In this document: positions 7,691-37,200 of the stretch, piece after piece
Layout of the letters: each line of letters begins with the position of its first letter
How positions within the stretch are numbered: the first letter of the stretch is position 1
Assembly (NCBI GenBank): GCA_947561395.2
Contig: OX387190.1
Location: 13,510,858 to 13,574,857, forward strand
Direction: 5' to 3'
DNA from: Buxus sempervirens
Lineage: Eukaryota > Streptophyta > Magnoliopsida > Buxales > Buxaceae
Length of the DNA: 64,000 nt
The notes under the pieces: model-generated
The model's database searches: none
The model's input: only the letters and a program-made list of their open reading frames with translations
Told to the model about the DNA's origin: nothing
Position numbers and translations under genes: made by a program

Positions 7691-7835
7691 CATTAACCGG
7701 CAACTCAGGCCGGTTAAGAACAACTTTATTCATATCCGGTATAAATTACCGGTTACAAAGGTATATGCATGTATCCGGTCATTATTGCCGGATACAATAA
7801 GACATATCCTTATCCGGCACTTAATGCTGGATACA
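7691..7835. repeat. TATCCGG dyad cluster in leader of C (4 dyads)
   Basis: Reverse-complement equivalent of the clusters in the A and D leaders. One dyad has AACCGG/CCGGTT arms and three have TATCCGG-type arms. One arm of the fourth is decayed (TGCTGGATAC). Confidence 0.85.
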
Positions 7836-8836: not shown

Positions 8837-8887
8837 GTACACTTATTTGCAATCATTGCTCCCGTGACCAGATCCAAAGCCAGAGCC

Positions 8888-14206: not shown

Positions 14207-14785
14207 TGTGAGTGTAACGCCCCGGATCCGAGTCACATGAAAAACCCGTAACTCGTCTCCAGAGGTTATTATAAAACTCAGGATCGCAATATCAGAGTGA
14301 AGGAAAAACACGAATACAACAATAACTATATAACAGAGTGCGCTAAAATATTCCCCAAACTAAAATAAAACTCACATGACCAAGTAACTACCCGCAAGTA
14401 TCGTCCTCTCCAGGAGCATCTGAAAACAAAACAAAACAATACGGAATGAGATACGAATATCCCAGTGAGCAGCACATGCATGCACAAATACATTTATTTC
14501 AGTTCTAAAACATGCCACGATTATAACCATGTACAATGACGATAATACGCATATTCCGAATAAGCCGACTAAACTTCAATAATCCAATTCATATCAGTGC
14601 GGGAAAACCATCAGGTAAGTCAAACAATAACAATCCGTTTCCAATCCCGAAGAATGCGATAAAATAAAGATTAACTAACAACAACATAGCGAATAACCAT
14701 AATTTCGTATCTCAAGATGTAATTCCAGATACACCAATGTCATATAACACAAAGTCTTCTCATAACCATGCCCACGCCTCCAAAT

Positions 14786-15222
14786 GTATATCCGGCCTAC
14801 TCAGGGTTTCGGATATTGAAATGACTGCGTCATCCAATGCAGGCCTACTCCCCGGGTTTCTGCATTGACAACCAGACCAACTCAGGGTTCCTGGCTGCTC
14901 TACACCGGCGGGAGGTACAATACCCAATAATCGGTAAACAATATTCCATGAACCATAAATACCAACAAACCAGGGAATAAAACATATCACGTCAAAACAA
15001 ATCAAGTACCAACATTGGTCAATGTCATGACTATCGTTTAGTTGATAAATTAAACATGCCAAGTAGACACTCCACACCTCCATGTACACAGTTCCGGCCT
15101 ACTCAGGGTTTCGGATACTCTGAAATGACGGCCTACTTAGGGTTTCGTCATCCAATGCAGGCCTACTCCCCGGGTTTCTGCATTGACAACCAGGCCTACT
15201 CAGGGTTTCTGGCTGCTCTACA
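14786..15222 (-). repeat. Two hairpin arrays with constant loop in solo LTR
   Basis: The units read CCTACTCAGGGTTTC (or its CCCCGGG variant), flanked by differing complementary arms such as TCCGG/CGGA, CAATGCAG/CTGCATTG and CCAGG/CTGG. The set at 14786-14905 is degraded; the second at 15092-15222 is better preserved. Corresponds to 44265-44385 of the E LTR in reverse. Confidence 0.75.
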
Positions 15223-15824
15223 CCGGTCGTGGCAACACACAAGGCCATGCAATTCCAACAACCAACAATAACATCACATTACTAAGCTTAGACTCTGGAT
15301 CCAGGACAAGCTAGACCAAAACAGTAAACATCGTATAATCTCGATTTCAATATCAAAACAAACCATTCATTTCCACATCATGTAATTACTCATCACAATT
15401 CATCACCTGTCCCTCTGGACCAAGCAGTACCTCAAGTACATTCAGTAATTTCTCATTTCCGTAACACAAGTCATATGAAAGTAAAACTCAATCCATTCAT
15501 ACCAAAGAAAACCTTTCAATACGTATAAAGTTTCCAATAAGTGAAACCAGAAATACAAGAACTTCTCAATCAAAACAGTGTATAGAACAAGGAAAAGTAA
15601 CTGGTAACTCTTACTAGTTTGGTGTCCGGCCCAATACTCAAAAGTAACCTAAACCCAACTTAAAAACTCTTAAGAGGTTCACAAATTTTTCCTCTATTAA
15701 TTTCATAGGCAAAATGGTTTCCCAGGTTCCTAACCAAGTGAATAGTGAAGTGGTTTAACCCCTAAGAAGTGCAAATACTCTTGTTCAAATCAGAAATTCC
15801 ATTTCGGGAAGCAAAATAGGTCTG

Positions 15825-16080
15825 CCGCTCACCTATCGAGGTGGGCGCGAGGTGAGCGCCGGTAGGCGGTGAAGAAAAAGGGCAAAATCGACCTGCCGCT
15901 CACCCGACGCTAGGTGAGCGCGAGATGGGCGTGAGGTGGGCGCGAGATTCGCGCGAGATGGGAGCCTTGTTTTCTACTTCACGCGAGATGAGCGCGAGGT
16001 GGGCGCGGGATCGGCGGTAGGTCATTTTTAACGGGGCGCCTACCTCCGAGGTGAACGCCGGTGAGCGCGAGGTGAGCGGA
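15825..16080. repeat. GC-rich degenerate repeat (GTGAGCGCGAGGTGGGCG type)
   Basis: Many imperfect copies of GGTGAGCGCGAGGTGGGCG and the reverse motif GCTCACC. Similar blocks lie in the E LTRs at about 43385-43650 and 52510-52790. No coding frame that I trust. Confidence 0.6.
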
Positions 16081-18958
16081 TACCCCCTGTGGTTTTCATT
16101 TCTCTGTTATTTTGAGATCTACATGACTGGCCGGTTTGTGAAGGTCTGTAACTACTCCAGTACACTCCTAATACTCCCAGAAGACTTCCCAACCATATTT
16201 GAAATTAATCTAAACACTTTCATTTTCAATTATAATTTCAATCCGGAGACTCTGTTCATGTAACTTTCCGAAAAAAACCAGAAAAACCAGAAAACATCAT
16301 ACTATCACTTAATATACAAACCATGCATCAGAATAAGCTCGAGAAACATAAAACACAAAACCCAGTTGTAAAACAGTGCTACTCACAAGTATACGCTTAA
16401 TCCGAGAAACAAAAGCTTATTCCACAGCCGGCCGAGCATGACTTCCGGCTGCGCGCGTGGATGCGAAGGTCGCCGAACTGATCCCCTGCTCGCGAGAGGA
16501 AAAACCCACTGAAATCCGACTCCAATAAACTCCTAGCAACTCTTGCGGTTCTCATCTCTTCCCAGCAAAACCCTAATCGCCACAGTAGCCGCCCTAATTT
16601 CAGAGCAACAACATTCCCCCAAAACCCCGAAAATTTATATCAGTTACCTATTTATACACCGCGAGGGTTTAACCTAATTCACCATTTACCCTGGGAATCC
16701 TCTTTCTACCCCTCCTTAGTGTAGGGTTTTCCCGGATTTTAACCATTGACCCATTTTTTATTTATTTCCGGTCCGAATATGACCTACGTATAAATATTTC
16801 CACCTTATTTTCTTTAACCCTAATGACCACAAATTTCTAGCAATAATAAAGTTGATTTAACCTGTACATACATCCATATGTGCATATACTTTTATTTTAT
16901 CTACTGTTATTATTTGTTTATTTTTATTCTATTATTATTATTTCATTTTATTATTTTATTATTTATTATTTTTTTTTCTACTCAAAATTGGGGTCTTACA
17001 GTGAGACATGAGAAAAAATCACCGGAGTGATCATCCCTCCGTCAACACACGGGCTCAACGCAAAAATTGGGAGAGTCGCCACCATTCATGGTTTTGGGGT
17101 GAGAATGGACACCAAAGAGTTCAAAAATAGGCAAAATGGCCAAAAGAAACATTCTAGGGTAAAAATAACCCTACTTGAAAATAAAATCCAGAAATGGGTA
17201 AGGGGATTAGATTATGAACGGGGGAAGGTGTTAGGCACCCCCATTAATCCACACGAAGTGGTTGCCAAGTGTACGTTCATGCTAAAAAGAAAATAAGAAG
17301 CTTGCTAAAAATCATGAAAAAGCCTTGAAAAAGGAACAATGTATGATATTTTCACATGAAGATCTAAATGGATTTTAGATCATCTCTTATGTCAATATCA
17401 CTTCTGGAATATCTCAAAAGATGGAAATCAAAGCAAAAGTGGCAAAAACCAAGTTGAGGCAAATCCGGGAATTTTGGTAAAAAGTAAGATCCTTTGTCTT
17501 GAAATCATTCAAATCCAATTTCAAATTGATTCAAACCAACTCTATTTGAAAGATTAAGGTAAATAAGAGTTTCATGCAAAATTTCACTTCATTCCGATAA
17601 AAATCCTAGGAGTTATGCTCCTTTGAAGTTGCTGCTGGGGATTTTTAAAAGTGGTAAGTGGGCAACTTTGGAAAATTGTCTAGAAAAATCCACTACACAA
17701 AAGTCCACGAAATTTGGTGTGATTGAAGTTTGTATGGCCATCTTTCCATAGAAACTAGCCTCATACAAAAATCCCTTCGGATGTGCCTTGGGTGGTCTCC
17801 CGAACAGGCCCCGAAGATCACAGATTTACCCAGAAAAGTACAAATGAACAGTTCTGAGTAAATCAGCTACCAATAATTCAAATGGAATCCAAAAATTATG
17901 AAACCAACTGGATTTAAAAATAGACTCATAAAGGAGTACTCAGAAACAAAACCCACTCGAATCGGACTTAAAACGAACACATGGCGGTCCGTCGAAGTGA
18001 CAAGTTCTGTACTTGGACCTGAACTGTCCACTTAACTTCGACAGAGAAGTGTCAAAAATCGGCTAGACAGAAATTCATGAAATTTGGTGGACATAAACTA
18101 GACAGCCTCACCTTTCCCATGATTCTGGAATCGCCCCAAAATCCATCCGGATGATGAATTTACGGACGTCCGAAGTAAGGGTACAGGTGCTGTCAAGCTA
18201 AGCCATTTTTGAGTAAAACCAAATCCGAAAATTGATAAAAAAATGAAATTCGTGCAAGATAAACCCCAAATATGAGCCTATCCCGCCAAAATAGTGATAT
18301 GTATGTGCAAGTGTAAAAAACCAAACAAGATCAATACAACATGCATATAGATTCAACAAAATAGGTTCTAGCATAGCCTAGGGTTCCATTCCATTATCGT
18401 TTCCCTCTGTTCTCTTTAAGATAATCAAGGGTACTTTGAATATGGAACGGTTTACAATCAATCAAAAAGGCCTTATGCTACATAGGTTCTAGCACTAGGG
18501 TCAATCCCCAGTCTCGTTTCTCCTAGATCCGCCTTCACGTTTTACGGCTAGGGGAGTCTTGAGATTCTTTGAGCCGGGGAAGGATTTTCACACATACAAA
18601 CAAGGCTTTACACTACAGAAAGGTAGAAGAAGAGATCTAGATCTAGGAACGTAAAGACAGAAAATAAAAAGAAAAGTTGAGGCTTACCTGAGTTCTGGAG
18701 ACGATTCCACAACGGTTTTCTTCTTCTCTTGGAGTTCTTCTTTACGAGAATTCAAAACAAGAGTTGTGTGCCATTTGCTCAAGGAGGAGGCTCCTATTTA
18801 TAAGCAAGGGCTAAGGTCATTGGTAGACACAAATTAATGTCTAGAACCCCTCCAACCTAAACCCTAAGGTTATTTCCGCGATTTCCCCTCATTTAATGAG
18901 GGACATGATGGTAAAAGTGAAAAGCTCTCGGAAAACCCTAATTTTGAGCAAACTTAAG

Positions 18959-19100
18959 GTATCCGGTATGTCAGACCGGATAACAAAGGGCTTTAAGGTA
19001 TCCGGTACATGGTACCGGATACCCTAAGGCTCACATGTATCCGGTATGAGTATCCGGATACGGGAAGGAGTACTTGTATCCGGATTGAGTATCCGGATAC
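18959..19100. repeat. TATCCGG dyad cluster in 3' LTR of D (4 dyads)
   Basis: Dyads start at 18959, 18998, 19037 and 19076, an exact 39-bp phase. Arms are GTATCCGG and CCGGATAC. In element orientation they lie about 155 bp upstream of the LTR TATA box. Confidence 0.9.
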
Positions 19101-19190
19101 AGATAAAAGTCTATTTTCTTCAAATTCTGTGCTGGCTTTCCAGGAGATAATGATTTTTGATGATTGTTTGTGCAATTTGGGGTGTCTACA

Positions 19191-19206
19191 ACTGCCCCTC
19201 TTTGTG
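19191..19206 (-). other. Polypurine tract region of element D
   Basis: Reading minus, AAAGAGGGGCAGT runs directly into the LTR start TGTAGACACC. This is the expected plus-strand primer of a retroelement whose 3' LTR is on the left. Confidence 0.75.
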
Positions 19207-19800
19207 GGAGCTGCGAAGCAGTGAGCTGCAAAGAGTAGACAAGCCCAAATTGCATTCCCTTGAGCATGATTTGCTCGGTTCAATTCAATTTCTGTAGAAA
19301 ACCATTTTTGAGTGGAGATTTGCCAAAAAGCCCTCACTTTAAGGGGGCATCTCTCCAAGAGTTCTTACATTCCACTGAGCCCTTTGTGGCTGTGAAGGGG
19401 ATTTTAAGCCCAAAAATAGGATTTTTTTTTTGAAAAACTGATTTTTTATCAAACCAAGTTGAAAATTGAGTGGATATCATCCTTTTGACCAGGCACATTT
19501 CCCAAAGTTGTCCCGAATTCCACAGAGCTCTCGTGGCTGTGAGGTGGATTTCAAGACAAAAATAGGATTTTGAGAAAATAGAAATTGTAGCACAATTTTG
19601 CTCTTTCCTTTTCCTTCTCTTTTTTTTTTCTTTTCTTCTTTTTTTTTTCTCTCTTTTTTTCTTTTCTCTTTTTTTTCCTTTTTTTTTCTTTTTTTTTCTT
19701 TTCATTTCCTTTTCTTCTTTTTTTTTTTTTTCATTTCCTTTTTTTCTATTCTTTTCTGTTTTTTTCTCTATTTTTTCTGTTTTTTTTTCTTTTTTCTTTG
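19207..19800. other. 3' internal region of D: spacer and polypyrimidine tract
   Basis: Bases 19207-19600 are non-coding, with two diverged copies of a segment around GTGGCTGTGA followed by ATAGGATTTT. Bases 19600-19800 are almost pure TTTTC/T repeats on the + strand, a low-complexity tract. Its apparent phenylalanine-rich frame is not a gene. Confidence 0.7.
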
Positions 19801-19862
19801 GTATCCGGTATGTGTATCCGGATAATCCAGGGTCTGCGGGTATCCGGCCTGAGTATCCGGAT
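19801..19862. repeat. TATCCGG dyads upstream of PMD2 promoter in D (2 dyads)
   Basis: Two 25-bp dyads with arms GTATCCGG and CCGGATAA or CCGGATCC, about 40 bp apart. The second ends about 10 bp before the TATA-like box at 19871. This is the only cluster with two rather than four dyads. Confidence 0.8.
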
Positions 19863-19870
19863 CCCCCAGG

Positions 19871-21147
19871 TTTTATAAGTCGCGCGCGACCGCGACTTTT
19901 CCTCTTCTTTTCTTCTTGCTCCGATTACTCAGACCGGCCATCTCCTTCTTCTTCTTCACCCGACGGCTCTTCCTTATTTTCCGGCGGCCTCCGACGACTC
20001 CGGTGCTTCATTTTGCTGCCGGCGACAACCTGTAGCTCCGGCGAATTCCCGATTGCTCTTTGACAGCCGCAGTCGAGCCCTAGCTCGATTTTTCCCATTC
20101 TCTTGTGATTTCTCAGCCTGACATTGGAGGTGTTGCTCCGGCTACTTGTCCCTTGATTCCCACTTGCAATCAGGCACTTGCTTCTCCACTGCTCGCCCAG
20201 GTTAGTGAGATTGGAATTTTTCTGGGTAATCCATTCATGCTTATTTGGACGAATTTCAATGCCATGTGCTATTTTTCCTTTGTAATGTGCTTTACTGCCA
20301 CATCCAAGCAATGTTGCCATGTTATTTGTTTTGTCCTTGTCAATTATTCAGAACTGGATGCAATGTTGATTGACTGTTAAAGGTGATGCATCTTGATTGG
20401 ATTTTGATTCTTATGCTTGATTGCCTAGTTCTTCATTGTTCTTCATATGATCATATTTGGCATTTTTTGTTGAATTTCTGCATGCTGACCGAATTTGCTC
20501 ATAAACTCTTGGTATGCTTGATGCTGCCATATTTACTTTATGATTCCTAATGGCCTGTTGGTGGTATTCATTGAATTTGTATGCTGAATTGGTTTGGACC
20601 TCGTAAACTTGCTCTGACTTTCTTATAGTTGACCAACTGGTGGTCTTTTCCCATGATTTTCTTTGCTTTTCAGATGGCATACTGCTGGTGCCATGTTGTA
20701 CTTTTTCTGATTGAATTCTGATTCTCATACCTCGCTGCTACTTCTTTTGTCTTGATATGCTGGGATTTATTCTTCTCAATCCACCTAGTGTTAATGTGGT
20801 GCTCTAACTGCCAGGACTATTCTGTGGTTGATTCTGGGATTCTTCAGTTTATTCCGATCCTTGATTTAGCTCAGACCATTTGCTTTTGCGCCACTGTAGC
20901 CATCCTGCAGTAAATTATCAGATATTAGGCCTTGTAAAAAATTTTTAGAGTAATATAGAAATATTTTTTAAAAGACTTTGAACCGAACCACAATCCCTGA
21001 AACATTTAATAAGATTCCAGATGAACTAGAGTTGGAACCTAAAGCAAGGTGAAATTTCTGATAAATTTGAACTAAATCCAGATTAAAAACAAAGTAGGAT
21101 TTTAGATAAATTTGTACTGAAATTCATAGGATACTTCCCTGTTGTAG
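19871..21147 (+). promoter_or_regulatory. PMD2 promoter, 5' UTR exon and 5' UTR intron in D
   Basis: TTTTATAAGT (19871) is a TATA-like box. The following 320 bp are GC-richer and end at CTCGCCCAG followed by GTTAGTGAG (donor at about 20201). An intron rich in T then runs to CCTGTTGTAG at 21147, immediately before the ATG. Element C has the same arrangement in reverse (donor at 59841, acceptor at 58817). Exon bounds are inferred from splice motifs and from comparison of C with D. Confidence 0.55.
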
Positions 21148-23945
21148 ATGGCTAGGAGTCGTTCTCGGGTTAGAGAGGAGGTTGACCCAGCTGATCAGCC
21201 CTCCAGTTCGCGGGCTCGGACAGAGGCGAGCTCCAGCGCCACTTTGTCTGAGCCATTAGGTGACTCCAGAGAGAGTTCTGCCGAGGTAGGTTTTCAAAAA
21301 ATTTTCTTTCTCTCTGCATTCTCCCTTGTACACAAATCTTCACGCTGTTCCTTTGCAATTCAGCCCGTGGTTGCACCCGCTCGTGGTCGAGGCCGAGGCA
21401 GAGGCCGGGTTCAGGATCAGGCCCCTGAGGGCGAGAGAGGCCGTGGTAGAGGCCGAGGCAGAGCCAGAGATACGGCTCCGGAGGGGGTTGCTGTAGCCCT
21501 GGCAGGGGTCCCTGAGGAGTTGAGGGCCTCTGTGCAGGATACAGAGCTCCTCCGTGGCTTGGATAGCCACCCTTCCATGTGCATCAGGGCGGATGTGCCG
21601 CTTCCTTATCATTCCTCTCATCTGCGAGGCAGCTGGGGGAGATTCAGTGAGTTAGCTCGATCGCTTTCCCCGGCACTCAGGCGGGAGTTTGGGAGGTGCC
21701 ACCTGGATCACTTCCTCAGTATTCCATCATTCAGAGCCGACCGTCCGCTTATTTTTGCCATGATGGAGAGATATTTCCCGGAGACGCAGTCGTTTCATTT
21801 GCCGGACGTGGAGCTAGGGATCCGCCCTTCCGATTTTGTGATGATCACCGGTATTCCATTGACGGGGCAGACCATCATCTTGGAGCGGCCTTCTGCGGAG
21901 GATATTGGCCTCCTTCTGGGGTATCAGGCCCTGCCACCTACTGCTTGGGATGGGAGGAGTGGCCGGCTCTCCATTAGCTGGCTGCGGGAGAGTCTGGCTC
22001 GTCATTTTGAGAGGAGGCACGAGACCGTCTCTGTGGAGGATGCAGCCTTTGCGCCGATCTTCCGACATGTATTCCTGCTGATGTTGGGGAGCTGCTTCTT
22101 CCCGGAGGATACTACCGGTGTCAGTCCGCTCTTTTTGGACGCTTTGAGAGATTTCTATCAGACCCGCCAGCTAGCATGGGGTCGGCTCATCTATGGGACC
22201 ATCTTGGCCGGGCTGTGCCGAGCGGTTCGGGGCTTAGCATCTCCGAGAGGTGATGGAGTTAGCAGCCGGTTTTTCTGGCAGATTCTACAGGTATTGCATT
22301 CATCTGTCTGGTTTAAGTCCTTAGGCTTTATCTTTTCTTAACTGATTTTTCTTTTGTTAGGTGTTCATGTACACCTATATGACCTTCTTCCGCCCCTCCC
22401 CGGTTCCTGAGGTTGCGGATTTCCCTGTGGCCCTGCGATGGTCGGCCCAGGTCCGAGATGCCGATAGGAGCCAGCCTCGTACTGCCCGAGTGCACTTAGA
22501 CCGTGCCCGCCGATCTGATGTAAGTCCTCTATCTTTTTTCTTTTATTTCCTTTCCTGTATCTTGACTGTATCTGACCACTTTGCTTCTTTGCAGCTCATT
22601 CTATCCCGTCCAGATGACGTGGATGTCGGAGTTGCCCGTGAGATGGCAGTACAGGATGCTTTTGAGAGAGATCTCCGACGTCAGCCTTACCAGTGCTTCC
22701 TTGGGAGGCTTGGTAGGGTGATGTACTTGGGAGAGCGCCTGTACTTCTAGCACACTGGCGCACTTCGCATCCCCATCCCTCCTCCTGCTGTGGGTCCCGA
22801 TACTCTCCTTCCTGGCTTCGATGTGGATCAGTTCGATCATTTTCTGGATGCCGAGGGGCTCACAGTAGCCGGAGATTATGACGAGTGGTTCCAGGGAGTA
22901 TCTATCGGATGCTTGATGGATCGACCTACTCGTGCCGAGGTGACAGAGATCGGCGGGATCCGTATCCGGATCCACGAGGACACGGTAAGCCTTGTACTCT
23001 TCCCATTTTTATCTTCTTTTCCTTCCTTATGCATTTCTGACCACGCTTCCGTTCTTGTTGGCAGGTACACGAGCTGAACTCCATTCGGGACCGGTTCGAG
23101 AGCCAGCGGGCTGCGATCGATGATATGATCGCGGAGCATGATGCGGTCGTGGCCCAGCGAGATGCCCGGATCAGGGAGCTAGAGGCCTTAGTTGCTGAGC
23201 TCCAGGCTAGACAGGTATCTGGCCTTCTCATATTTTCATTTCTTCCATTTTTCTATTTCTGCTATTCTGATGTGCTTGTTTGCCTTGTGCAGGGCTCGGT
23301 CCCAGATCAGGGTGCCTTCTTTGAGCATGATTTCCTTATTCCTGACCCATCTCCTGCTCGGGCCTCTGATCCTGTGGACGTCCCAGCTGCTGATCTTGGT
23401 GATGCTCCAGTGATGGTTCCTGAGCCAGAGGAGGTCCCTGCTGCCGACCCAGTGGCTCCTGCAGATGCCCCGGCTGTTCCAGTGATGGTTCATGAGCCGG
23501 AGGAGGTCCCTGCTGCTGACCCAGTGGATCCGGATCCTCCAGTGCCTGCTGTAGATATCCCTGGTATGCTTCCTTTAATTTTTCCTTTTTGGTTTATTCT
23601 GATGCTTTCATTTCTGATTTTTTTCCTGTTGATCCAGATGTTTCTGCTCCTTGCCATTCTTCTGCTGCCGGGTCTTCTGGAGCTGCGGGAGCAGAGCCTG
23701 CTATGGCTGAGGGTCCAGTCGGGCCGGTTGCTGTTGAGCCAGAGGCCTCCTCCCCAGATTCCACTCCTGCTCTACCCCCAGACATTGAGGAGTATTGCCT
23801 AGAGTATCAGCTCCAGCAGGTGGTGGGTCGGCATCCTCGCCATGCAGCCGAGCGTATTCTTGCCTATTCTAGGCGTAGAATGATTCGAGGGAGAGGCCGT
23901 AGAGGTGGACGTGGCCGAGGACGCGTGGATGATCCTGCACATTAG
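21148..23945 (+). pseudogene. PMD2: plant mobile domain gene of element D (7 coding exons, one premature stop)
   Basis: Exons 21148-21285, 21364-22290, 22361-22519, 22595-22984, 23065-23214, 23293-23563 and 23638-23945 join in phase at GT-AG borders to about 780 codons. Residues 50-80 are Arg-Gly repeats. A PMD-type domain follows (VELGIRPSDFVMITGIPLTG at about 195-214, then an Arg/Trp-rich helical part to about 350). Exon 5 is a predicted coiled coil; exons 6-7 are Pro/Asp/Val-rich repeats, ending in an RGRGRRGGRGRGR tail. PMD proteins such as MAIN/MAIL1 act in the nucleus in plants; the role here is unknown. TAG at 22748-22750 (CAG in C) cuts it at codon 460. It is antisense to gag-pol. Confidence 0.8.
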
Positions 23946-24157
23946 CAGTAGATTAGGATTTCTTCTTTTTATGTATTGATCTCATCATTCCTTGTACAAA
24001 AAACTTGCATATATATGAAAGAAAACTTTTTATTCATTCTATCTGGTCTTGAACATCTTTTGCTCTCAATTTTATGCCATTATGACTTGTACACAGGTAA
24101 AACAGGTAAAAAATTCGGATTTTTCATCCTTAGCTCATTTTTCTGCTGTTTTTCTTT

Positions 24158-24299
24158 GTATCCGGTCTGACATACCGGATACATTGATTGGTCTTTGTAT
24201 CCGGTATGTTATACCGGATATTCATAGAATCCTTTGTATCCGGTATATTTATCCGGATATTAATGAAGCTTTTGTATCCGGTCTGAGTTACCGGATACG
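24158..24299. repeat. TATCCGG dyad cluster upstream of PMD1 in D (4 dyads)
   Basis: Dyads start at 24158, 24197, 24236 and 24274. The arms GTATCCGGT and ACCGGATAC are nearly perfect in the first and last. The cluster ends 12 bp before the TATA box at 24311. Confidence 0.92.
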
Positions 24300-24310
24300 T
24301 TAAAAGATGC

Positions 24311-24318
24311 TATAAATG
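24311..24318 (+). promoter_or_regulatory. TATA box of PMD1 (element D)
   Basis: TATAAATG within GCTATAAATGCAACC lies 117 bp upstream of the ATG at 24428. It is identical in element C (55742-55735, minus). Directly preceded by the dyad cluster. Confidence 0.65.
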
Positions 24319-24427
24319 CAACCAGCCTCGGGATTTGAGCATTTTTTACGAGTTTTTGAGTTTAGAAACCCCCTTTTTCGCCTTTTTCCTCCTCCTCTTG
24401 AGTTCTAGCTTGCTCCCGTCACATCCA

Positions 24428-26155
24428 ATGGAATCCGGATCATCTTCTGCCCCATTATTGTCTGTCCACACTGCCTCCCCTGCAAAACAGCCTTTTAGAT
24501 CAAAACCCCCAAATCTCACTAGGTACAATCCTGTGGATTCCTTTTACACAAGGTGGGTTAACTCTATGACCCTAGATGAGGAGAGGAGATGGGGTACTAT
24601 CAACCTAGGCCATACCCTGCTCATTCCCAAGGTTCCCTTCAGGTGGGAGATTATAGAGGCCATGATTGGTCATTGGGTTCCTGACCTCAACTTGTTTCGT
24701 TTCGGGAACCATGAGATGACCCCAACCATTGAGGAGGTGGAAACCATCTTGGGCTTGAGGTTTGATGAGAAGGTGGTGAATCCACCTCTAAGGCCCAGTT
24801 ACAAAAAGGAAGCTTCTACTTTTTTGGGCATAGGGAAGAAGGACTTGGGGGATTCTGACACCCTTTTGACCCTATCTAAGGCCTTTTTGACTGAGAAGCT
24901 TTTGAGGGGAGAAGATAAGGAGGCCCGATTCAATGCGTTGACCCTGATAGTGGTCAACCAGTTGCTTTTCCCACGAGAGGACGACGAGGTGGACTTGGCC
25001 TTGATCTCAGTGATATGCCAGGTTAGGGAGAGGGAGAGGTTGGCCCCTATGATTTTAGCTGGGATGTATCAGGCCTTGACTGACTGCTACAACAGGAAGT
25101 CAAAACGCTTCCTAGCATGTGCCCAAGTCCTGCAGGTAAAAAAAAAGTTTTTTTTTTAATTTCTTTTTTCCTTGCTTTTTTTGTTTTTGCTTTCTTTTTG
25201 CCTCTTTTTTTTTTTTTTGCTTCTTTTTTTTTTTTTTTTTAATACAATGTGCTGACACATCTCTCTTCCTTTGCAGCTTTGGCTACTTGATCATTTGAGC
25301 CAGATTGAAGAGATCAATCGACACTTCTTCCCGAGTCTGAAAGTCCCTCTCTTGATGAGCAACAGGGGGTGCCCCGATATTCCAGGGGGCAAACAGGGCT
25401 GGTTTACTTTCTTGGGCTCACTTCAGGAGGACCAGGTGAGATGGCCTGGCACTTATCAGCCCAATGCGGAGACAGTGATTAGCTTCCGAGACCGCAACTT
25501 TCTGATTCTGGCTGGCCTGAGGCATGCAGTGCTTTATCTTCCTCTGCGGGTCCTTCGTCAGTTCCGTGCGACCCAGGGGATTATCATCCCATGTGGATAT
25601 GAGGATCGTCTTGGGCCCCTTTCTATGAAGCTGAATGCCTGGTTGATGAAGGAGTGGTCTTATGTCTGCTTTATGCATGGTCCAGTCTTCTCAGAAGCCC
25701 ATGTGAAGGATTATCTCTTCTGGATCAAGGAGCAGATACAGACTCAGGCCCCAATACCCGAAGATCCTCCAGTAGTTTTGGCTCCCACCTATGAGGACAT
25801 TCTAGAGTCTGAGCGGGCTTCTCATAAGCGGCTTCAGCAGATATGGGTACAGGAGGCCCAGGAGCTCAGGATACAGGGCACTTATCTGGAGAGGCAGCTT
25901 GAGGAGCAGATCTCACGCCGTATTGCCTTGGAAGAGAAGCTGGAGGAGCAGAGGCAGGCTCGTTGCTTTGAGGTCCGTACGATCCGGCAGAAGTACCAGG
26001 ATACTTTGGCCAGCCTTAGGAGTATGCGGATCAGGCAGGCCCTTTCAGATGAAGTCATTTCCTTCTTGAGTGATCCCGCTGCAGAGGGGGCTTCAGGAGT
26101 CATTGCAGCTCAGGCAACTCGGATTCGGGAGCTTGAGGAGCGGCTAGGAGATTAG
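24428..26155 (+). CDS. PMD1: PMD/DUF7745-like protein of element D (2 exons, intact)
   Basis: Exon 1 is 24428-25135 and exon 2 is 25277-26155, joined at CTGCAG/GTAAAA and TTTGCAG/CTTTGG, giving 528 residues with no stop. The N-terminal globular part has WEIIEAMIGHWVPDLNLFRF and PTIEEVETILGL (residues 73-110), typical of PMD or DUF7745-like proteins near plant retroelements; exon 2 continues it (LILAGLRHAVLYLPLRVLRQ). The last 130 residues form a long Gln/Glu/Arg-rich coiled coil. No transposase, RT or nuclease motif is seen. ATG 24428 is chosen because the frame upstream lacks another ATG and C starts there too. It is antisense to pol, with its stop 966 bp from the pol stop. Function unknown; family assignment is by pattern recognition. 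Confidence 0.8.
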
Positions 26156-27120
26156 AGATTAGCTTTATTTCCTGCACATTTTTCATACCTTTGTACAAAA
26201 TTGAACTCCAATAGTGGAAATACAAAGGATTTAATTAAAAATAAAGTTTTTATATTATTGGCCTCAGAACGCTCAGATGCTTGTAAAAACAAAGGTTTTA
26301 TGAAAAGTATTTGATTTATCATCACTGGCCAAAGTATAATTTTTTCCTTTTTATATTTTTTTTTGTATTTTTTTGAAATTTGGTCCATGCACTTAATCAC
26401 CTATAATTAAAGGAATTAGAACCAGGTTAAATAATGAAAAGGGTAGTCCACAAAATACTGAGGGATCAGAACCGTCCATCTTAGGACCTTTAGAGTCATC
26501 CCCAAATGCCTTTTCTTCCAGAATTGACTGTATTACCCAATCTGCTCATGCCAACTTTGCTTAAGGCTCAGATCCCCATGATCAACTCAACCTCTGATTT
26601 TCTTTCATTTTTCTTATTTTTTCTTTTTGCCTTTTTGCCAATATTGCCCCTAGCGCCAGTTACGGTTTTCACTAGGGCCGGCTTCTGAATTCCGTCATCA
26701 CCCATCTTACTCTGATATTTGAATGAACAAGCTAAGATCACCGAGGGCTTAAAAATAGGACGAAATAAAGGCTAGGCTCAGTTTATGAAAGAAAGGGTAT
26801 TAAAGGCCCAAAATTTTCCAAGTGCGGAGATAGGTCAACCGGATTTACAGTCATGATAAATTTACCCATTTTTCCCCAAATTGCATTTTTTTGCATCTTT
26901 TTTCACACTTGGCTTTCATTTGCCATTTCCATTGCTTTTCCTCTCTTTTTCTTTTTCTTTCCTTTCTTTGCCCCAATTTGTTTTGCCCCAATTTAAGACT
27001 GTAAATCCAGTTTGGGTTTATCAAAGAAACGAACCGGCTCAACTTGGCTAGACTAGGGAAAATTTTTTTTTGAAGGAAATAAAGAAAAATGGCCTCGGAT
27101 CATTTCCCAGAAATATTCAC
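26156..27120. other. Spacer between convergent PMD1 and pol in D
   Basis: Non-coding and homologous to 41468-42402 of C in reverse. AT-rich, with a CTTTC-type pyrimidine stretch near 26930-26970. It probably holds the 3' ends of the two converging transcripts. No clear terminator motif identified. Confidence 0.65.
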
Positions 27121-29169
27121 TCAAAGGAAATACCTTTTTACCGCATCAGAGTTAATGGGCTCAGGAAAATCTGCCCCATCCATTTCTGCTAAGATGAGTG
27201 CTCCCCCTGATAGGACTTTCTTGACTACATATGGGCCTTCCCAATTGGGCTTGAACTTACCCCGAGGGTCTTCCAAAAATGGTAGAATTTTCTTTAGCAC
27301 TAAGTTTCCTTCTTGGAAAGTTCTGGGCCTCACTTTCTCATTGTAAGCCCGGGCCATTCTCTTCTGGTACAACTGTCCATGGCAAAGTGCTTTCAACCGC
27401 TTTTCTTCTATCAAGTTAAGTTGATCATGTCTCAACTGGACCCATTCGGCTTCTTCTAGTTCTGCTTCCATGAGCACTCGGAGTGATGGGATCTCCACTT
27501 CCACAGGCAAGACTGCTTCCATCCCATAGACTAGGGAGTACGGGGTTGCCCCAGTTGAGGTCCGGATCGAGGTTCTGTAGGCATGTAGAGCAAGTGGCAG
27601 CATTTCATGCCAATCCTTGTAGCTCACTACCATCATTTGAATGATTTTCTTTATGTTCTTGTTTGCTGCTTCCACTGCCCCATTCATCTTTGGCCTGTAC
27701 GGAGCTGACTTATGGTGGGTGATCTGAAACTGCTCACACATTTTCTTCATGTCCTTGTTCTTAATATTTGAAGCATTGTCTGATACTATGGCACTTGGCA
27801 GTCCATAGCGACAAATGATATTGTGCTTCAAAAATTTAATGACATGGTTGCTTGTGATGTTCGCATATGAAGCTGCTTCTACCCACTTAGTGAAATAGTC
27901 AATCGCCACCAGGATGAATCTGTGTCCGTTCGATGCCTTAGGTGAGATCATGCCAATAACATCTATGCCCCACATAGAGAAGGGCCAGGGTGATGTCATG
28001 TTGTGCAGCTCGCCTGGGGGTGCATGCTTGTTATCTGTATATATCTGGCATTGATGGCACCTCCTGACATGTATACAGCAATCATGCTCCATGGTCGTCC
28101 AGTAGTATCCCAGCCTCAGGATCTTCTTAGCCAACATGTGTCCACTCATATGGGGCCCACAGACTCCTCCATGTACCGTCTCGATTAACCTTTCCGATTC
28201 AGCCTTGGCTATGCATCTTAGCAGAATGTCATTATGTGACCTCTTGTACACATGTCCACCACTTAGCAGAAATTGACCAGCCAATCTCTGTATTGTCCTC
28301 TTCTCAGTAGCAATGGCATTTTCTGGCAAACTCCGATTGTTCAAGAAATTTTTGATATCTTGAAACCATGGTGTTTCTTCTTCTGGTGCTCCCTCTAGAG
28401 CGAGACAGTAAGCCGGTTCATCTCGGACCTCAATTTCCAGTGGTCTGATGTCTACTCCTTCTGATATGCTGACCATTGAAGCCAAGGTTGCTAGAGCATC
28501 TGCAAACTGATTCTTGGCCCTTGGCATATAGTTGAAGGAAATTCGAGTGAAATTTGTGCTTATTTCTTCCAAATACTGGTGATAGGGGATCAATTTGTGA
28601 TCCTTGGTTTTCCACTCACCAGTTTTTTGGAAGATGATAAGACTCGAATCCCCGTATACGTCAAGTTCCTCTACTCCATGATCCATAGCTGCTTGCAATC
28701 CAATTATGCATGCCTCATATTCTGCTATGTTATTGGTGCACTGGAATCTCAGCTTTACTGCAATTGGGATATGTGAACCATCTGGTTTGACCAAGACTGC
28801 CCCTATTCCGTTTCCATTCATGTTGGCGGCCCCATCGAAGAACATCTGCCAAGAACTCTCACTGTCCTCCTCTTCAGTGTACAGAATTGCCTCATCTGGG
28901 AAGTTGGTCTTCAAGGGTTGATATTCTGGCAGAGGATGTGCAGCCAGGTGATCAGCTATGGCTTGACCCTTGATCGCCTTCTGGGTGATGTATGTGAGGT
29001 CAAACTCGGATAGTAGCAGTTGCCATTTTGCCGTCCTGCCAGTCAGTGCCGGTTTCTCAAATAAATATTTCAGCGGGTCCATTCGGGATATCAATAGTGT
29101 GGAGTGACTAAGGAAGTAATGCCTTAGCCTCTGAGTGGCCCATACTAGAGCACAGCAAGTCTTTTCCAA
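27121..29169 (-). CDS. Element D pol: end of RNase H, archaeal-type RNase H, integrase
   Basis: A 682-codon open frame. It begins inside the first RNase H (RLRHYFLS, then a connection segment). Residues about 155-280 are the second, archaeal-type RNase H that defines the Tat lineage, with catalytic positions in FFDGAANMNGNGIGAVL, NNIAEYEACI, DVYGDSSLII and NQFADALATL. Integrase follows with a zinc finger (VHGGVCGPHM ... CHQCQ), core Asp in WGIDVIGM, Asp in IVSDNAS and Glu in MNGAVEAANK. The C-terminus has GPYVVKKV, with no chromodomain. The whole part is open. It is separated from the upstream RT frame by one extra A in a seven-A run at 29205, so it cannot be made as one protein without a frameshift. 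Confidence 0.9.
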   Translation of the reverse strand: MEKTCCALVWATQRLRHYFLSHSTLLISRMDPLKYLFEKPALTGRTAKWQLLLSEFDLTYITQKAIKGQAIADHLAAHPLPEYQPLKTNFPDEAILYTEEEDSESSWQMFFDGAANMNGNGIGAVLVKPDGSHIPIAVKLRFQCTNNIAEYEACIIGLQAAMDHGVEELDVYGDSSLIIFQKTGEWKTKDHKLIPYHQYLEEISTNFTRISFNYMPRAKNQFADALATLASMVSISEGVDIRPLEIEVRDEPAYCLALEGAPEEETPWFQDIKNFLNNRSLPENAIATEKRTIQRLAGQFLLSGGHVYKRSHNDILLRCIAKAESERLIETVHGGVCGPHMSGHMLAKKILRLGYYWTTMEHDCCIHVRRCHQCQIYTDNKHAPPGELHNMTSPWPFSMWGIDVIGMISPKASNGHRFILVAIDYFTKWVEAASYANITSNHVIKFLKHNIICRYGLPSAIVSDNASNIKNKDMKKMCEQFQITHHKSAPYRPKMNGAVEAANKNIKKIIQMMVVSYKDWHEMLPLALHAYRTSIRTSTGATPYSLVYGMEAVLPVEVEIPSLRVLMEAELEEAEWVQLRHDQLNLIEEKRLKALCHGQLYQKRMARAYNEKVRPRTFQEGNLVLKKILPFLEDPRGKFKPNWEGPYVVKKVLSGGALILAEMDGADFPEPINSDAVKRYFL

Positions 29170-29185
29170 TGGTGAGTATTCGGCT

Positions 29186-30763
29186 TCATATTCTGTGAAT
29201 TTTTTTACTCAGATAGTAAATTGCCCTTTCTTTTCTACCAGTCTCATCATGCTGCCCCAAGACACATCCCATCGACGTTTCCAACACTGACAAGTACAGG
29301 ATCAGCGGTCTTCCTGGAGTTGGTGGCACTAGCACAGGTGGGTTCAGCAAATACCTCTTTATTGTGTCAAATGCCTGCTGGCAGTCCTCATTCCAGATCG
29401 TAGGGTTATCTTTCCTCAAAAGTTTGAAAATTGGTTCACAGATAGCAGTGAGCTGTGCTATGAACCGGCTTATGTATTGAATCCTTCCAAGAAAGCCCCT
29501 GACCTCCTTCTCGGTTCTGGGTGCTGGCATTTCAATTATGGCCTTGGCTTTTGCCGGGTCAATTTCAATTCCTCTTCGGCTCACTATAAACCCCAGTAAC
29601 TTCCCTGATGTAGCCCCAAAGACGCACTTAGCCGGGTTAAGCCGTAAACTGTACTTCCTGAGACGATTAAACACTTTCTTCAGATTGATCAAGTGGTCCT
29701 CCTCTTTGCATGATTTGGCAATCATATCATCCACGTAGACCTCCATCTCCTTATGGATCATGTCATGAAATAGTGCAATCATGGCCCGCTGGTATGTTGC
29801 CCCAGCGTTTTTAAGCCCAAATGGCATGACTGTGTAGTGGAATGTGCCCCAAGGTGTGATAAATGCTGTTTTCTCTTGATCCTCCTTAGCCATCTTGATC
29901 TGATTATATCCTGAGAAACCATCCATGAAAGAAAACAGGCTATGTACCGCAGTATTATCGACCAGAATGTCGATGTGTGGAAGCGGAAAATCGTCATTTG
30001 GGCTTGCCCTGTTCAAGTCTCTATAGTCCACGCACATTCGGACCTTCCCGTCCTTCTTTGGTACCGGCACTATGTTTGCGAGCCACTCCGGGTACGTAGA
30101 GACTGCCAAAAATCCAGCTTGGAACTGTTTGACCACTTCATCCTTGACCTTCAGAGTCCACTCAGGTTTCAATCTTCTCAGCTTCTGCTTAATCGGCTTA
30201 ACCCCTGGTAAAATTGGCAACTTATGCACCACCATGTCCGTGTCCAACCCCGGCATGTCTCGATATGACCAAGCGAACACATCTTTGTAGTCTGCCAAGA
30301 ATTGTGACATTTCATTTCTCTGCACATCAGACAAGCATGACCCGATTTTTACAATTTTTGGGTCATCTTTGGTCCCAAGGTTTATGGATATGGTCTCCTC
30401 AATATTAGGTTGGACCCCGTTTTCATGACGTTCCAATTGGTATTCAATTTCTTTTGGAATGTCTTCTTCTTTGACCTCGGTCTCTTCTTCGACCCCCATG
30501 AGATCAAAGTCGAGCTCAAGGTCGAAGTCATATTCAACCTGGTCCAATTCGGTCTGATTATATGGCTCATAAGTGGTTTTGACCTTTTTGAAAAAATTAA
30601 ATTTCCTAGAAAAAATAGAAAAATCTTTTTGGGTTTTTTGTGGGCCTTCTAAACATAATTCCCCTGAAGACGAAGGCCCATTAGAACCTTCAGGGAAATG
30701 GCAATCCACTATTGGAATTTTTTTTGGAAGCCGCGTCAGTTTGCCACACAGACGCTGCTTCAA
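29186..30763 (-). CDS. Element D pol: reverse transcriptase and start of RNase H
   Basis: A 525-codon open frame. An acidic linker (DFDLELDFDL) precedes RT, which shows VPVPKKDGKVRMCVDYRDLN, FSFMDGFSGYNQIKMA, FGLKNAGATYQRAM and the catalytic YVDDM, then the RNase H start (LYLSVLETSMGCVLGQ). It ends early in KKIHRI because of a homopolymer insertion; C reads through at the same site. It overlaps the G-patch frame at 30690-30763 in another phase, at an eight-A run. All RT catalytic residues are present. Confidence 0.9.
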   Translation of the reverse strand: MKQRLCGKLTRLPKKIPIVDCHFPEGSNGPSSSGELCLEGPQKTQKDFSIFSRKFNFFKKVKTTYEPYNQTELDQVEYDFDLELDFDLMGVEEETEVKEEDIPKEIEYQLERHENGVQPNIEETISINLGTKDDPKIVKIGSCLSDVQRNEMSQFLADYKDVFAWSYRDMPGLDTDMVVHKLPILPGVKPIKQKLRRLKPEWTLKVKDEVVKQFQAGFLAVSTYPEWLANIVPVPKKDGKVRMCVDYRDLNRASPNDDFPLPHIDILVDNTAVHSLFSFMDGFSGYNQIKMAKEDQEKTAFITPWGTFHYTVMPFGLKNAGATYQRAMIALFHDMIHKEMEVYVDDMIAKSCKEEDHLINLKKVFNRLRKYSLRLNPAKCVFGATSGKLLGFIVSRRGIEIDPAKAKAIIEMPAPRTEKEVRGFLGRIQYISRFIAQLTAICEPIFKLLRKDNPTIWNEDCQQAFDTIKRYLLNPPVLVPPTPGRPLILYLSVLETSMGCVLGQHDETGRKERAIYYLSKKIHRI

Positions 30764-31493
30764 AGGTAAGAGGAGTTTCCTCCCAATTGTTCAGTACAAA
30801 ATTTTGGGGAGCAGGGGAAATAGGGAAAGCCTGCTCTTCAAACCCAGCATCCGATACCATCATCACCAGGTGGGTACTGCCCTTTTCTGCTACGGGGCCC
30901 AGTCCAGAAATGACCTTGTCTGAAACCTTTACTGCGGCCCAATCAATGAATGGCAGTTCCATGTCTGCCCCTGTCTTTTCGCCCTCAGTCATGGCGAAGA
31001 ATGCACCAACATCTTCAGAAAAGTCCAACTGCTGCTCGGGCTGTGGCCCAGGCCCATCTGCTGCTCCCAGTATTGGAGAAGGGTTATAGGGTTGTAGGGC
31101 CGAAACAAAAGGCTTTTGAAATGGGTTAATGTTTCGGTATGGGGGTTTGGACTGGTCCATGGGAGGAGTTATTTGGATTATATAGGAGGGTTTTGGAAAG
31201 TTCACCCTCAGATGCGGGAGTTTTCCTTTGCTTCTGCTCTCCCCTTCTTCATGTTCCATTATTCTCCAGCCTCTGGGCTTGAAGCCCAACCCTACCTTGG
31301 GGATCAGTTTCTTAGCCGTGATTGGCTCCACCATCCCTTGCAGATTGATCCCCAGGCCTTTCCTTGGGTGAAAGTGGTATTTCTCCATCACTTTCTTGAC
31401 CATTTTTTCTGCAGTGGTCCCCTTTTCTTTTCTTTTTATCACACCCCCCAGGTATGTAATTGACCGCCTCAAATTGAAATGAGTGGAATGCAA
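30690..31493 (-). CDS. Element D: G-patch-containing segment between protease and RT
   Basis: In D this segment is shifted from the protease frame by one extra A in the A-rich run near 31440. Its true content starts about AEKMVKKVMEKYHF. The glycine motif GKGLGINLQG ... VGLGFKPRG is G-patch-like. A Pro/Asp/Glu-rich linker follows and ends at Ala-Ser-Lys-Lys. It continues gag-protease in C, so it belongs to the same polyprotein. The residues before the G-patch in this frame are probably not natural. Confidence 0.7.
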   Translation of the reverse strand: MHSTHFNLRRSITYLGGVIKRKEKGTTAEKMVKKVMEKYHFHPRKGLGINLQGMVEPITAKKLIPKVGLGFKPRGWRIMEHEEGESRSKGKLPHLRVNFPKPSYIIQITPPMDQSKPPYRNINPFQKPFVSALQPYNPSPILGAADGPGPQPEQQLDFSEDVGAFFAMTEGEKTGADMELPFIDWAAVKVSDKVISGLGPVAEKGSTHLVMMVSDAGFEEQAFPISPAPQNFVLNNWEETPLTFEAASVWQTDAASKKNSNSGLPFP

Positions 31494-34155: not shown

Positions 34156-34413
34156 TGTATTTTCCCTGATCAGAATGGGCTCAGGGACTGGTTCAGAAAT
34201 TGGGCTCAGGCATGGGCTGAGCCGGAGGCGGAATATAGGCCTGAGGTGGCGGTGCCGGATGAGAAGTCGACGCCTAATTTTGGGCTTGAGCCTGCTGGGC
34301 CTGAGCCGTCAGTAAGTCTCCCAGCATTTTGGCCAGACCGGCCACTTGCTCCTACAGCTGAGTAAAGCCTGAGCGGGGACAGTAGCTTGGGCTTGGTTCT
34401 CTTCAGTATTCAT
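34156..34413 (-). pseudogene. Element D gag N-terminal part (frameshift and stops)
   Basis: ATG at 34413-34411 starts MNTEENQAQATVPAQ. Compared with C, one base is missing near 34370, a TAG follows (CAA in C), and another TAG lies near 34283. Gln/Ala- and Pro/Glu-rich coding continues but is broken. This is the most damaged section of the D polyprotein, so D could not make full-length Gag from this ATG. Confidence 0.75.
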
Positions 34414-34469
34414 AGCTCTGGCTTTGGATCTGGTCACGGGAGCAATGATTGCAAATAAGTGTAAATGTA

Positions 34470-34492
34470 CCTGAAGAAAAAATGAATAGAAC
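34470..34492 (-). promoter_or_regulatory. Candidate 3' splice acceptor before gag of D
   Basis: Minus strand: CATTTTTTCTTCAG followed by GTACATTT, 57 bases before the gag ATG. Homologous in position to 8836 (C) and 95 (A). Confidence 0.5.
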
Positions 34493-34619
34493 ATGTTAGC
34501 TTCCATTTAACTTGAGTCACACCCTTATCCATGTAAACCAGTAGGTTAGGTGAACACCAATCCAGATTTATTTTTTTTTTTTTTGTTTTTTTTTTGTTGG
34601 AATATTTTTTTTGCTGTTT

Positions 34620-35245
34620 TGATTTTGTGTTGGAATATTCTAGGGCTTCCAAGGGTCCCAAAAATTTTTTTTTGATTTGATTGATAAAAATAACCAACCA
34701 AGGTTTTCATGGAATATTCTAGGGCTTCCAAAGGTCCCAATTTTTTTTGATTTGATTGATAAAAATAACCAACCAAGGTTTTCATGGAATATTCTAGGGC
34801 TTCCAAGGGTCCCAATTTTTTTTTGATTTGATTGATAAAAATAACCAACCAAGGTGTCTTGGAATATTCTAGGGCTTCCAAGTATCCCACAAATGTTTTG
34901 ATTTGATTGATAAAAATAACCAACCAAAGGTGTCTTGGAATATTCTAGGTCTTCCAAGTATCCCACAAATGTTTTGATTTGATTGATAAAAATAACCAAC
35001 CAAAGATGTCTTGGAATATTCTAGGGCTTCCAAGTATCCCACAAATGTTTTGATTTGATTGATAAAAATAACCAACCAAAGGTGTCTTGGAATATTCTAG
35101 GGCTTCCAAGTATCCCACAAATGTTTTGATTTGATTGATAAAAATAACCAACCAAAGGTGTCTTGGAATATTCTAGGTCTTCCAAGTATCCCACAAATGT
35201 TTTGATTTGATTGATAAAAATAACCAACCAAAGGTGTCTTTTTTT
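34620..35245 (-). repeat. Leader hairpin array of element D (8 units of about 76 bp)
   Basis: Units carry CTTGGAA-n10-11-TTCCAAG with loop TATTCTAGGGC and a spacer with TTGATAAAAATAACCAACCA. They start at about 34630, 34707, 34783, 34859, 34936, 35012, 35088 and 35164. Same loop as in C and A. Overlapping small open frames are artefacts of the period. Confidence 0.9.
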
Positions 35246-35542
35246 TTTTTTTTTTTCCTGAATTGTCTCAGTTTTCAAGTTCAAAAGTTTGACTGACACA
35301 TGTTTGAGTTGAGTTGGTGTCAAAAAAATATGACACCTTGGTTTCCTCTTAGGTTAAATCCTGAAAGAATATTTTATTTTATTCTTTTTTTTGTTTTTCT
35401 TTTTTTTTGTATTTTTTTTTGATTTTGTATTTTTGGGAACATTTCTTATGTTCTTTTCGGGGTGCCTAAGGATTATCTACAGTGTTTTAGGCATTTTATT
35501 TTGAAAATTTGGGCTGAAAAGCCAATTTGTGCATTTTTTGAA

Positions 35543-35686
35543 TGTATCCGGTATACTATACCGGATAAGAATATGCCTTATTGTATCCGGTCAACCTAAC
35601 CGGATATACGCATATGCCTTTGTATCCGGAAATATATACCGGATATGAACAGAGTTGTTATTAACCGGCCTGAGTTGCCGGTTATT
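35543..35686. repeat. TATCCGG dyad cluster in leader of D (4 dyads)
   Basis: Three TATCCGG/CCGGATA dyads and one AACCGG/CCGGTT dyad at about 39-bp spacing. Same order as in the A leader (1974-2117). Confidence 0.88.
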
Positions 35687-35749
35687 GCCGAAATGGCCCT
35701 TTTTGACTCATTTTTTTCACCAGATTAGTTTTTTTTCATTCCCAATTGA

Positions 35750-37180: not shown

Positions 37181-37198
37181 TCCCCAGCAGAGTCGCCA
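37181..37198 (-). other. Primer binding site of element D
   Basis: Minus strand TGGCGACTCTGCTGGGGA, two bases from the LTR end at 37201. Identical to the A site. Probably a tRNA-Arg type (from memory of Ogre/Tat elements). Confidence 0.88.
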
Positions 37199-37200
37199 GT

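Follow-up and report, generated by a model that had tools for sequence, protein, structure and literature searches.

VANDAL elements are Mu-like DNA transposons, and foamy viruses are retroviruses whose internal promoter lies on the same strand as gag-pol. In Arabidopsis, the VANDAL elements carry a short motif that is repeated in the non-coding parts of one element family and is bound by the VANC protein of the same element, and these cis and trans parts evolve together, as the relevant passages of Hosaka et al. (2017, PMC5735166) describe. In foamy viruses, the retroelement's own regulator, Tas, acts on both the long terminal repeat (LTR) and an internal promoter (relevant passages of PMC8670036 and PMC4929722). 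The subject of the present work is a large LTR retrotransposon of the Tat clade in Buxus sempervirens, which we examined in a window of 64,000 nucleotides (contig OX387190.1, positions 13,510,858 to 13,574,857). Arrays of short dyads stand in its LTR, in its leader and upstream of two antisense genes that encode the plant mobile domain (PMD). Our best reading, to which we give a probability of about 0.55, is that a symmetric DNA-binding regulator uses these arrays as operators at the sense and antisense promoters alike.

The likeness to these systems has its limits. The VANC motif is not described as a dyad, the word "palindrome" being absent from the main text of PMC5735166, and binding is known for VANC, whereas here we infer both the binding and the tie between protein and operator. 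The foamy virus is an animal retrovirus, unlike this plant element, and the likeness, judging by the same passages, is one of layout. Closer by descent are the Ogre and Retand clades, which share with our element its large size and a second RNase H between RNase H and integrase; no dyad arrays are described in the relevant passages of Neumann et al. (2019, PMC6317226), and the word "promoter" is absent from its main text. Antisense accessory genes of the Retand and Grande elements have nuclear or predicted DNA-binding products, the Grande gene23 has its own promoter, and a regulatory role for the antisense open reading frames (ORFs) of these elements was proposed earlier, according to the relevant passages of Vicient (2025, PMC11963269) and of Vicient and Casacuberta (2020, PMC7264820). 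Those genes are mostly of the Transposase_28 type, the PMD is mentioned in neither main text, and the same passages describe no operator common to the LTR and the antisense promoters. Finally, the PMD proteins MAIN and MAIL1 are tied to a promoter motif called "DOWN", direct recognition being one hypothesis in the relevant passages of Nicolau et al. (2020, PMC7156037); these are host genes, unlike the PMD genes of the element, and we liken them by concept and not by motif letters.

Dyad arrays in the LTR, the leader and the PMD promoters

The window holds three copies of the element (B, D and E), as established by self-comparison and domain calls. It was scanned for GTATCCGG-N-CCGGATAC with up to four mismatches in the 16 arm bases and spacers of 5-13 base pairs (bp). 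This gave 37 matches with a 9-bp spacer, 34 of which are clustered and make up the 25-bp dyads GTATCCGG-N9-CCGGATAC considered below, all with this same spacer; the three solitary ones (at 25066, 25980 and 54963) have three or four mismatches and were excluded from the count. The 27 matches with other spacers are overlaps of known dyads or lone sites with three to four mismatches. In its exact form, the 16-base motif occurs 13 times, against a maximum of zero across 100 dinucleotide shuffles, and half-sites are not enriched outside the clusters (5 observed, 7.1 expected). The dyads form nine clusters, with four dyads in eight of them and two in the cluster at 19801, and successive dyads start 39 bp apart in 24 of the 25 steps and 38 bp apart in the remaining one (24236 to 24274). 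A sequence-only reading of this DNA had announced nine clusters with this very make-up and a phasing of 38-39 bp; the scan bore out both and recovered all nine positions, its coordinates being within 3 bp.

These clusters are not nine independent cases, because they all come from three copies of one element. They reduce to four element positions, namely the U3 part of the LTR (twice in B, once in E), the leader (B, D and E), the PMD1 promoter (B and D) and the PMD2 promoter (B), and none of the nine lies in the coding stretches that were identified. Upstream of the copy D PMD2, the scan gave no dyads; there, the similarity to copy B stops at 58856 and the sequence of another element starts near 59939.

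The distances to the TATA boxes come from a pattern search, the TATAAG of PMD2 lying outside the pattern and being read from the sequence. The LTR array is 156 bp from a TATAAAT in copies B and E, the PMD1 array is 12 bp from a TATAAAT in copies B and D, and the PMD2 array is 9 bp from its TATAAG, in agreement with the earlier placement of the dyads upstream of the LTR, PMD1 (12 bp) and PMD2 (about 10 bp) TATA boxes. The broader statement that they mark all three promoters of the element holds for these three, but it leaves out the leader cluster, for which a comparison of B, D and E gave no TATA box common to all copies. Indeed, 92-93 bp sense-downstream of the leader array, copies D and E have TATAAAA where B has CATAAGA, and a TATAAAT at 12 bp from the array is found in copy D only. 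A leader promoter is thus possible in the older copies and seems not to have been kept in the young copy B, and we do not claim the leader array as a fourth promoter.

Half-sites, conservation and the base beside the arm

The half-site statistics are drawn from 60 half-sites of 30 dyads, the 5' LTR of copy B being excluded as a near-duplicate of its 3' LTR. Positions A3 and C6 are invariant and T2, C5, G7 and G8 almost so; T and A both occur at position 4, and G, T and A at position 1. In all, 55 of the 60 half-sites match NTA[T/A]CCGG. The two arms are unlike in 18 of the 30 dyads, and the arm changes look like changes of half-site, not changes of pairing. The coordinated change of both arms to TTAACCGG/CCGGTTAA, pointed out before, is real in two leader copies (2092 and 7693), and the third (35661) departs from it at one arm's outermost base. 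Beyond the arm, a pyrimidine (T or C) stands at position -5 in 59 of the 60 half-sites, with no exception among the 28 of copy B. This column, the strongest of 14 outside columns that were all inspected, is some 10 bp (one helical turn) away from the CCGG core and makes the site longer than the palindrome; the -5 bases pair across the dyad in 18 of 30 cases, which we estimate to be about the expectation from a pyrimidine on both sides. The half-sites are 17 bp apart within a dyad and 22 bp apart between neighbouring dyads, the latter being near two turns, and the 39-bp pitch falls between whole turns if one turn is taken as 10.5 bp.

In the last dyad of the array, the spacer is YCTGAGTTR or near it at all four positions, with TGAGT in seven of the nine arrays. 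The arrays have a uniform orientation on the element, the last dyad being the one nearest to the TATA box at both PMD genes and the one farthest from it in the LTR. They look like copies of one ancestor, retained at sense and antisense promoters, and, if they act, they would do so regardless of direction. The last-dyad spacer (e.g., 35661-35685) is kept across arrays while the other spacers drift, and a second factor may read it. A common dyad order across the cluster types was considered and rejected, since dyad 4 alone is clear and 32 of 576 reorderings equal the real order. As a separate observation, the B and D spacers of PMD1 dyads 1 and 2 (24158-24221 and 55833-55896) agree better after reverse complementation, at 7 and 8 of 9 positions instead of 4 and 5; a flipping of spacers between arms is a lead only, the spacers being AT-rich and partly self-complementary.

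Conservation was measured in five pairwise comparisons of homologous clusters (the leader three ways, the LTR and PMD1), in which pairs share sequences. The arms are identical between copies at 306 of 320 positions (96%), and the interleaved bases at 274 of 389 (70%; spacers 116/180, linkers 158/209), which upholds the earlier remark that arms are kept while spacer bases vary; the difference has a p of 5e-20 if the cells are taken as independent, which they are not fully. In the aligned 500-bp flanks, 3604 of 4428 positions are identical. Insertions and deletions within the clusters number 0, 0, 0 and 1, against 2.64, 2.29, 2.51 and 1.15 expected from the flanks, which makes one against about 8.6 over four pairs in which leader B is used twice. 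Of the CpGs in the arms, 76 of 80 are kept, and of those outside them 68 of 124; this would fit selection on the arms and gives no direct information on methylation, to which, according to the earlier suggestion, binding could be sensitive. Next to leader dyad 4, we also observed that the adjoining block at 35686-35735 (around AAAAAATGAGTCAAAAAGGGCCATTTCGGCA on the sense strand) is almost unchanged in B, D and E.

The base just inside the arm differs between the copies: it is T in 18, A in 7 and C in 3 half-sites of B, C in 12 and T in 4 of E, and C in 8 and T in 8 of D. Matching B with the older copies gives 32 half-site comparisons: in 13 of them B has T where the older copy has C, in none is it the reverse, 13 are unchanged and six have A in B (three opposite C, three opposite T). 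These 13:0 transitions span the matched leader, LTR and PMD1 clusters, and the non-CpG transitions of the flanks stand at 141:181. Since B is the young copy, decay after insertion would act in the opposite direction. The change would suit a binder that differs by element lineage, and it has a parallel in the VANC21 motifs, whose C-type and T-type variants differ by one base (relevant passages of PMC5735166). The pyrimidine at -5 and this one-way change in the young copy are new here.

A putative regulator and its rivals

In the model that we propose, one symmetric DNA-binding regulator would find four operators in each array (two in one case); its monomer would read about Y-N4-N-TA[T/A]CCGG, two monomers sitting head to head over the 9-bp spacer. 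It is from the presence of the same arrays at the LTR U3, the two PMD promoters and the leader that joint control is suggested: one regulator could set the gag-pol (sense) and PMD (antisense) transcription together. That some protein binds the arrays is highly probable. Whether it would be the element's own PMD1 and/or PMD2, which would create a feedback loop, is for us an even bet; if so, the putative regulator would be somewhat more apt to activate or de-silence than to repress. A closed circuit, in which the antisense PMD regulator and the operators at the LTR, the leader and its own promoters would allow a joint escape from silencing, with operator and protein changing by lineage, is a more tentative proposal that falls a little short of even odds.

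The PMD genes lie on the strand opposite to gag-pol, between pol and the 3' LTR. Pfam PF10536 (cut-off 34.9 bits) recognises PMD1 with 48.8 bits in copy B and 52.8 in D, and PMD2 with 50.5 and 51.4, and the only Pfam families above cut-off on these ORFs are PMD and DUF7745. Both proteins are under purifying selection between B and D. The ratio of nonsynonymous to synonymous substitution rates (dN/dS) is 0.067 over 24428-25126 and 0.123 over 25256-25951 in PMD1, the latter stretch beginning 21 bases before the likely exon, and 0.109 over 21361-22290 in PMD2; a PMD2 stretch of 50 codons (22362-22520) with a dN/dS of 1.37 was discarded as being in the wrong frame, with stops in both copies and another frame open. 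PMD1 is stop-free in the compared parts of both copies, and PMD2 has one in-frame stop in a downstream exon of copy B and two in the compared part of D. Introns of these antisense genes can presumably persist because the genomic RNA comes from the other strand. PMD2 is Arg-Gly-rich at its C-terminus and near its N-terminus, and coiled-coil-like stretches were seen by eye in PMD1 (C-terminus) and PMD2, a coiled-coil family matching PMD2 only and below cut-off.

The earlier proposal was that a dimeric DNA-binding protein, possibly encoded by the element, controls sense and antisense promoters together. The part of it that stands is a DNA site of two half-sites shared by the LTR and both antisense promoters, with 55 of 60 half-sites conforming and with arms and spacing kept; the element-encoded binder is, at this stage, plausible, in view of the purifying selection on the PMD genes and of the one-way change beside the arm. 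The analogy with VANDAL is likewise apt for the motif, which is repeated in the non-coding parts of the same element; on the protein side, the Pfam families above cut-off are PMD and DUF7745.

Several observations weigh against our reading. No known DNA-binding domain was found in the PMD ORFs by Pfam and a further domain search. Compared to solved structures, the PMD proteins gave none at an expect value (E) up to 1 in one search, and two at E 0.24 and 0.42 in a second search for structure relatives, over the Arg-Gly-rich part and not significant; structure models from two-row alignments were unusable, with a mean predicted local distance difference test score (pLDDT) of 40 and 37. The conservation rests on three copies, all within this window. 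When a comb of the arm positions is slid through the flanks, it equals the arm identity at 182 of 717 placements for leader B-E, 16 of 717 for leader B-D, 4 of 717 for the LTR and 49 of 716 for PMD1. By this control, the arms of the leader pair B-E do not exceed the best-preserved stretches of their flanks, and the expectation that dyads are better conserved than flanks is answered in part: the LTR bears it out clearly, the interleaved bases also differ clearly from the arms, and that leader pair does not bear it out. As for the base beside the arm, the 13:0 counts leader B twice and becomes 10:0 without the B-D leader pair; with 13 of the 32 sites unchanged and six having A in B, the change is a trend and no clean switch. 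Taken by cluster, the LTR alone is significant (p 0.0014, with 0.31 twice for the leader and 0.2 for PMD1), and copying between the arrays of one element could yield the same directional change. Both this base and the -5 base were discovered by looking.

The main competitor is a host transcription factor that would bind the arrays and be exploited by the element; a single host cue would then drive the PMD genes and gag-pol together, and the PMD proteins would have some other function. Arrays beside TATA boxes are ordinary promoter architecture and the PMD ORFs are without a recognised DNA-binding domain, which makes this a serious contender; we nevertheless hold it to be clearly less probable than our best reading, for half-sites outside the clusters, where the other elements of the window lie, number 5 against 7.1 expected, and, if a single factor served all copies in one host, one would not so readily expect the base beside the arm to change one way in one copy and not in the others. 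It is very improbable, in our judgement, that the dyads act as RNA hairpins in the genomic RNA (for export, packaging or translation control) and stand at promoters incidentally. Each dyad can indeed fold into a hairpin whose stem reaches 8 bp and whose loop has 9 bases, the pairing of leader dyad 4 is kept in two of three copies through changes of both arms, and the sense RNA would include the leader, PMD and 3' U3 arrays. Set against this, 219 of the 240 arm pairs are Watson-Crick in the sense RNA, with 3 G-U and 18 mismatched, and 219 of 240 in the antisense RNA, with 8 G-U and 13 mismatched: the deviations break the pairing more than they wobble it and mostly keep a valid half-site, the partner arm often being unchanged. 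What favours half-sites in DNA over hairpins is that many arms switch to another half-site allele while the partner stays as it was, that the stem does not include the -5 base, and that the arrays are 9-12 bp from the antisense TATA boxes.

The arrays could also be functionless duplicated repeats that are alike through recent copying between parts of the element. The clusters do share ancestry, as the last-dyad spacer indicates, spacers are in some cases alike in different clusters of a single copy (those of LTR dyad 1 and PMD1 dyad 1 in copy B are exact reverse complements), and tandem-repeat arrays are common in such elements (relevant passages of PMC6317226 and PMC11963269); the leader pair B-E, whose arms do not exceed the best flank, points the same way. 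Recent copying would, however, preserve spacers and linkers as well, and these are 70% identical against the 96% of the arms, so that we consider this explanation as improbable as the hairpins.

The element copies, their neighbours and the meaning of the arrays

Copy B has LTR ends of the TG...CA type and a 5-bp target duplication, CTTAG, at 14202-14206 and 39477-39481; it also has a second RNase H between RNase H and integrase, and both features are those of the Tat clade (Ogre/Retand). Its LTRs are about 99% identical over their aligned parts, the 3' LTR being without some 72 bp found in the 5' LTR, which is followed by TGGCGACTC, a likely primer-binding site recognised by eye. In the ORF 27121-29208, the domains are RT_RNaseH (2-69), RVT_3 (124-242), H2C2 (336-390, slightly below cut-off) and rve (409-506), and RVT_3 would, from its position, be the aRH of PMC6317226. 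Between the two clades, the PMD content leans to Ogre, 57% of whose elements have PMD extra ORFs (relevant passages of PMC6317226), and the antisense ORFs between pol and the 3' LTR lean to Retand. The coordinates are gathered in Table 1.

Table 1. Positions in the window of the element copies, genes, dyad arrays and TATA boxes.
Feature	Coordinates	Strand	Remarks
Copy B	14207..39476	-	Young Tat-clade element, from LTR identity; nested insertion 14213-17000
Copy B 5' LTR	37201..39476	-	Begins TGTAGACACC on the - strand, ends CTCACA
Copy B 3' LTR	17001..19190	-	Last six bases at 14207-14212, severed by the nested insertion
Copy D	~6548-14206; 39477-42578; 54121-58856	+	Old, broken up; leader, gag and pol; further pol; PMD genes
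Copy E	~1494-5893	-	Old; one LTR plus leader
gag ORF	31312..34308	-	
pol	27121..30790	-	RT, RNase H, second RNase H (RVT_3), integrase
PMD1	24428..26155	+	Two exons, 24428-25135 and 25277-26155, with a likely intron at 25136-25276 (borders by eye); plant mobile domain, DUF7745
PMD2	21148..23945	+	Plant mobile domain; looks multi-exon (by eye)
Dyad array, copy B 5' LTR U3	39245..39386		Four dyads
Dyad array, copy B 3' LTR U3	18959..19100		Four dyads
Dyad array, copy B leader	35544..35685		Four dyads
Dyad array upstream of copy B PMD1	24158..24298		Four dyads, pitch 39, 39, 38
Dyad array upstream of copy B PMD2	19801..19864		Two dyads; spacers resemble LTR dyads 3 and 4
Dyad array, copy D leader	7693..7834		Four dyads
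Dyad array, copy D PMD1 promoter	55755..55896		Four dyads
Dyad array, copy E leader	1975..2116		Four dyads
Dyad array, copy E LTR	5726..5867		Four dyads
TATAAAT, copy B 5' LTR	First base 39088	-	156 bp from array
TATAAAT, copy B 3' LTR	First base 18802	-	156 bp from array
TATAAAT, copy E LTR	First base 5569	-	156 bp from array
PMD1 TATA box, copy B	24311..24317	+	12 bp past array
PMD1 TATAAAT, copy D	First base 55742	-	12 bp from array
PMD2 TATAAG, copy B	19874..19879	+	9 bp past array

Other sequences accompany or interrupt the copies. The insertion at 14213-17000 (TGTAACG...TCTTACA, target duplication GTGAG) sits six bases from the end of the copy B 3' LTR; it partly matches, at about 77%, the LTRs at 42604-44992 and 51737-54123 and is perhaps a lone LTR. 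These two LTRs are 97% identical and belong to a second Ty3-type element (42604-54123, gag at 45118-46314), which separates the pol part of copy D from its PMD part. A 3.6-kilobase stretch that is pol-like by its ORFs occurs at 46854-50484 and, inverted and with 98.8% identity, at 59939-63577. Dyad-free tandem repeats of about 75 bp lie between the leader array and gag at 34626-35240 in copy B and 8108-8711 in copy D, and units related to them are found near 1494-1679 in copy E.

Among the matches listed in the open-access literature, there was no report of an operator array shared by an LTR and antisense promoters, and, among those listed for the motif strings TATCCGG/CCGGATA in print, none was apparently relevant by its title or the start of its abstract. 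A protein search with the copy D PMD1 ORF gave no relatives at E 0.001, scans of viral contigs with the pol and PMD1 ORFs gave none that was confirmed, and a scan of viral contigs for the dyad pattern gave none. The same pattern was met in three records of a scan of bacterial genomes, and the one examined (L003) is a short palindromic tandem repeat: its positions 380-500 hold a short run of TATCCGGATA palindromes, which is probably unrelated.

Neumann et al. ask, in the relevant passages of PMC6317226, whether the extra ORFs of plant LTR retrotransposons function at all. The putative operator shared by the LTR and the PMD promoters offers a concrete target sequence, with which one can test directly what the PMD proteins of retrotransposons do. 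If it is true that the element's own protein binds it, retrotransposons would have a counterpart to the VANC system of DNA transposons, which may also bear on the role of the host PMD proteins in transposon silencing.

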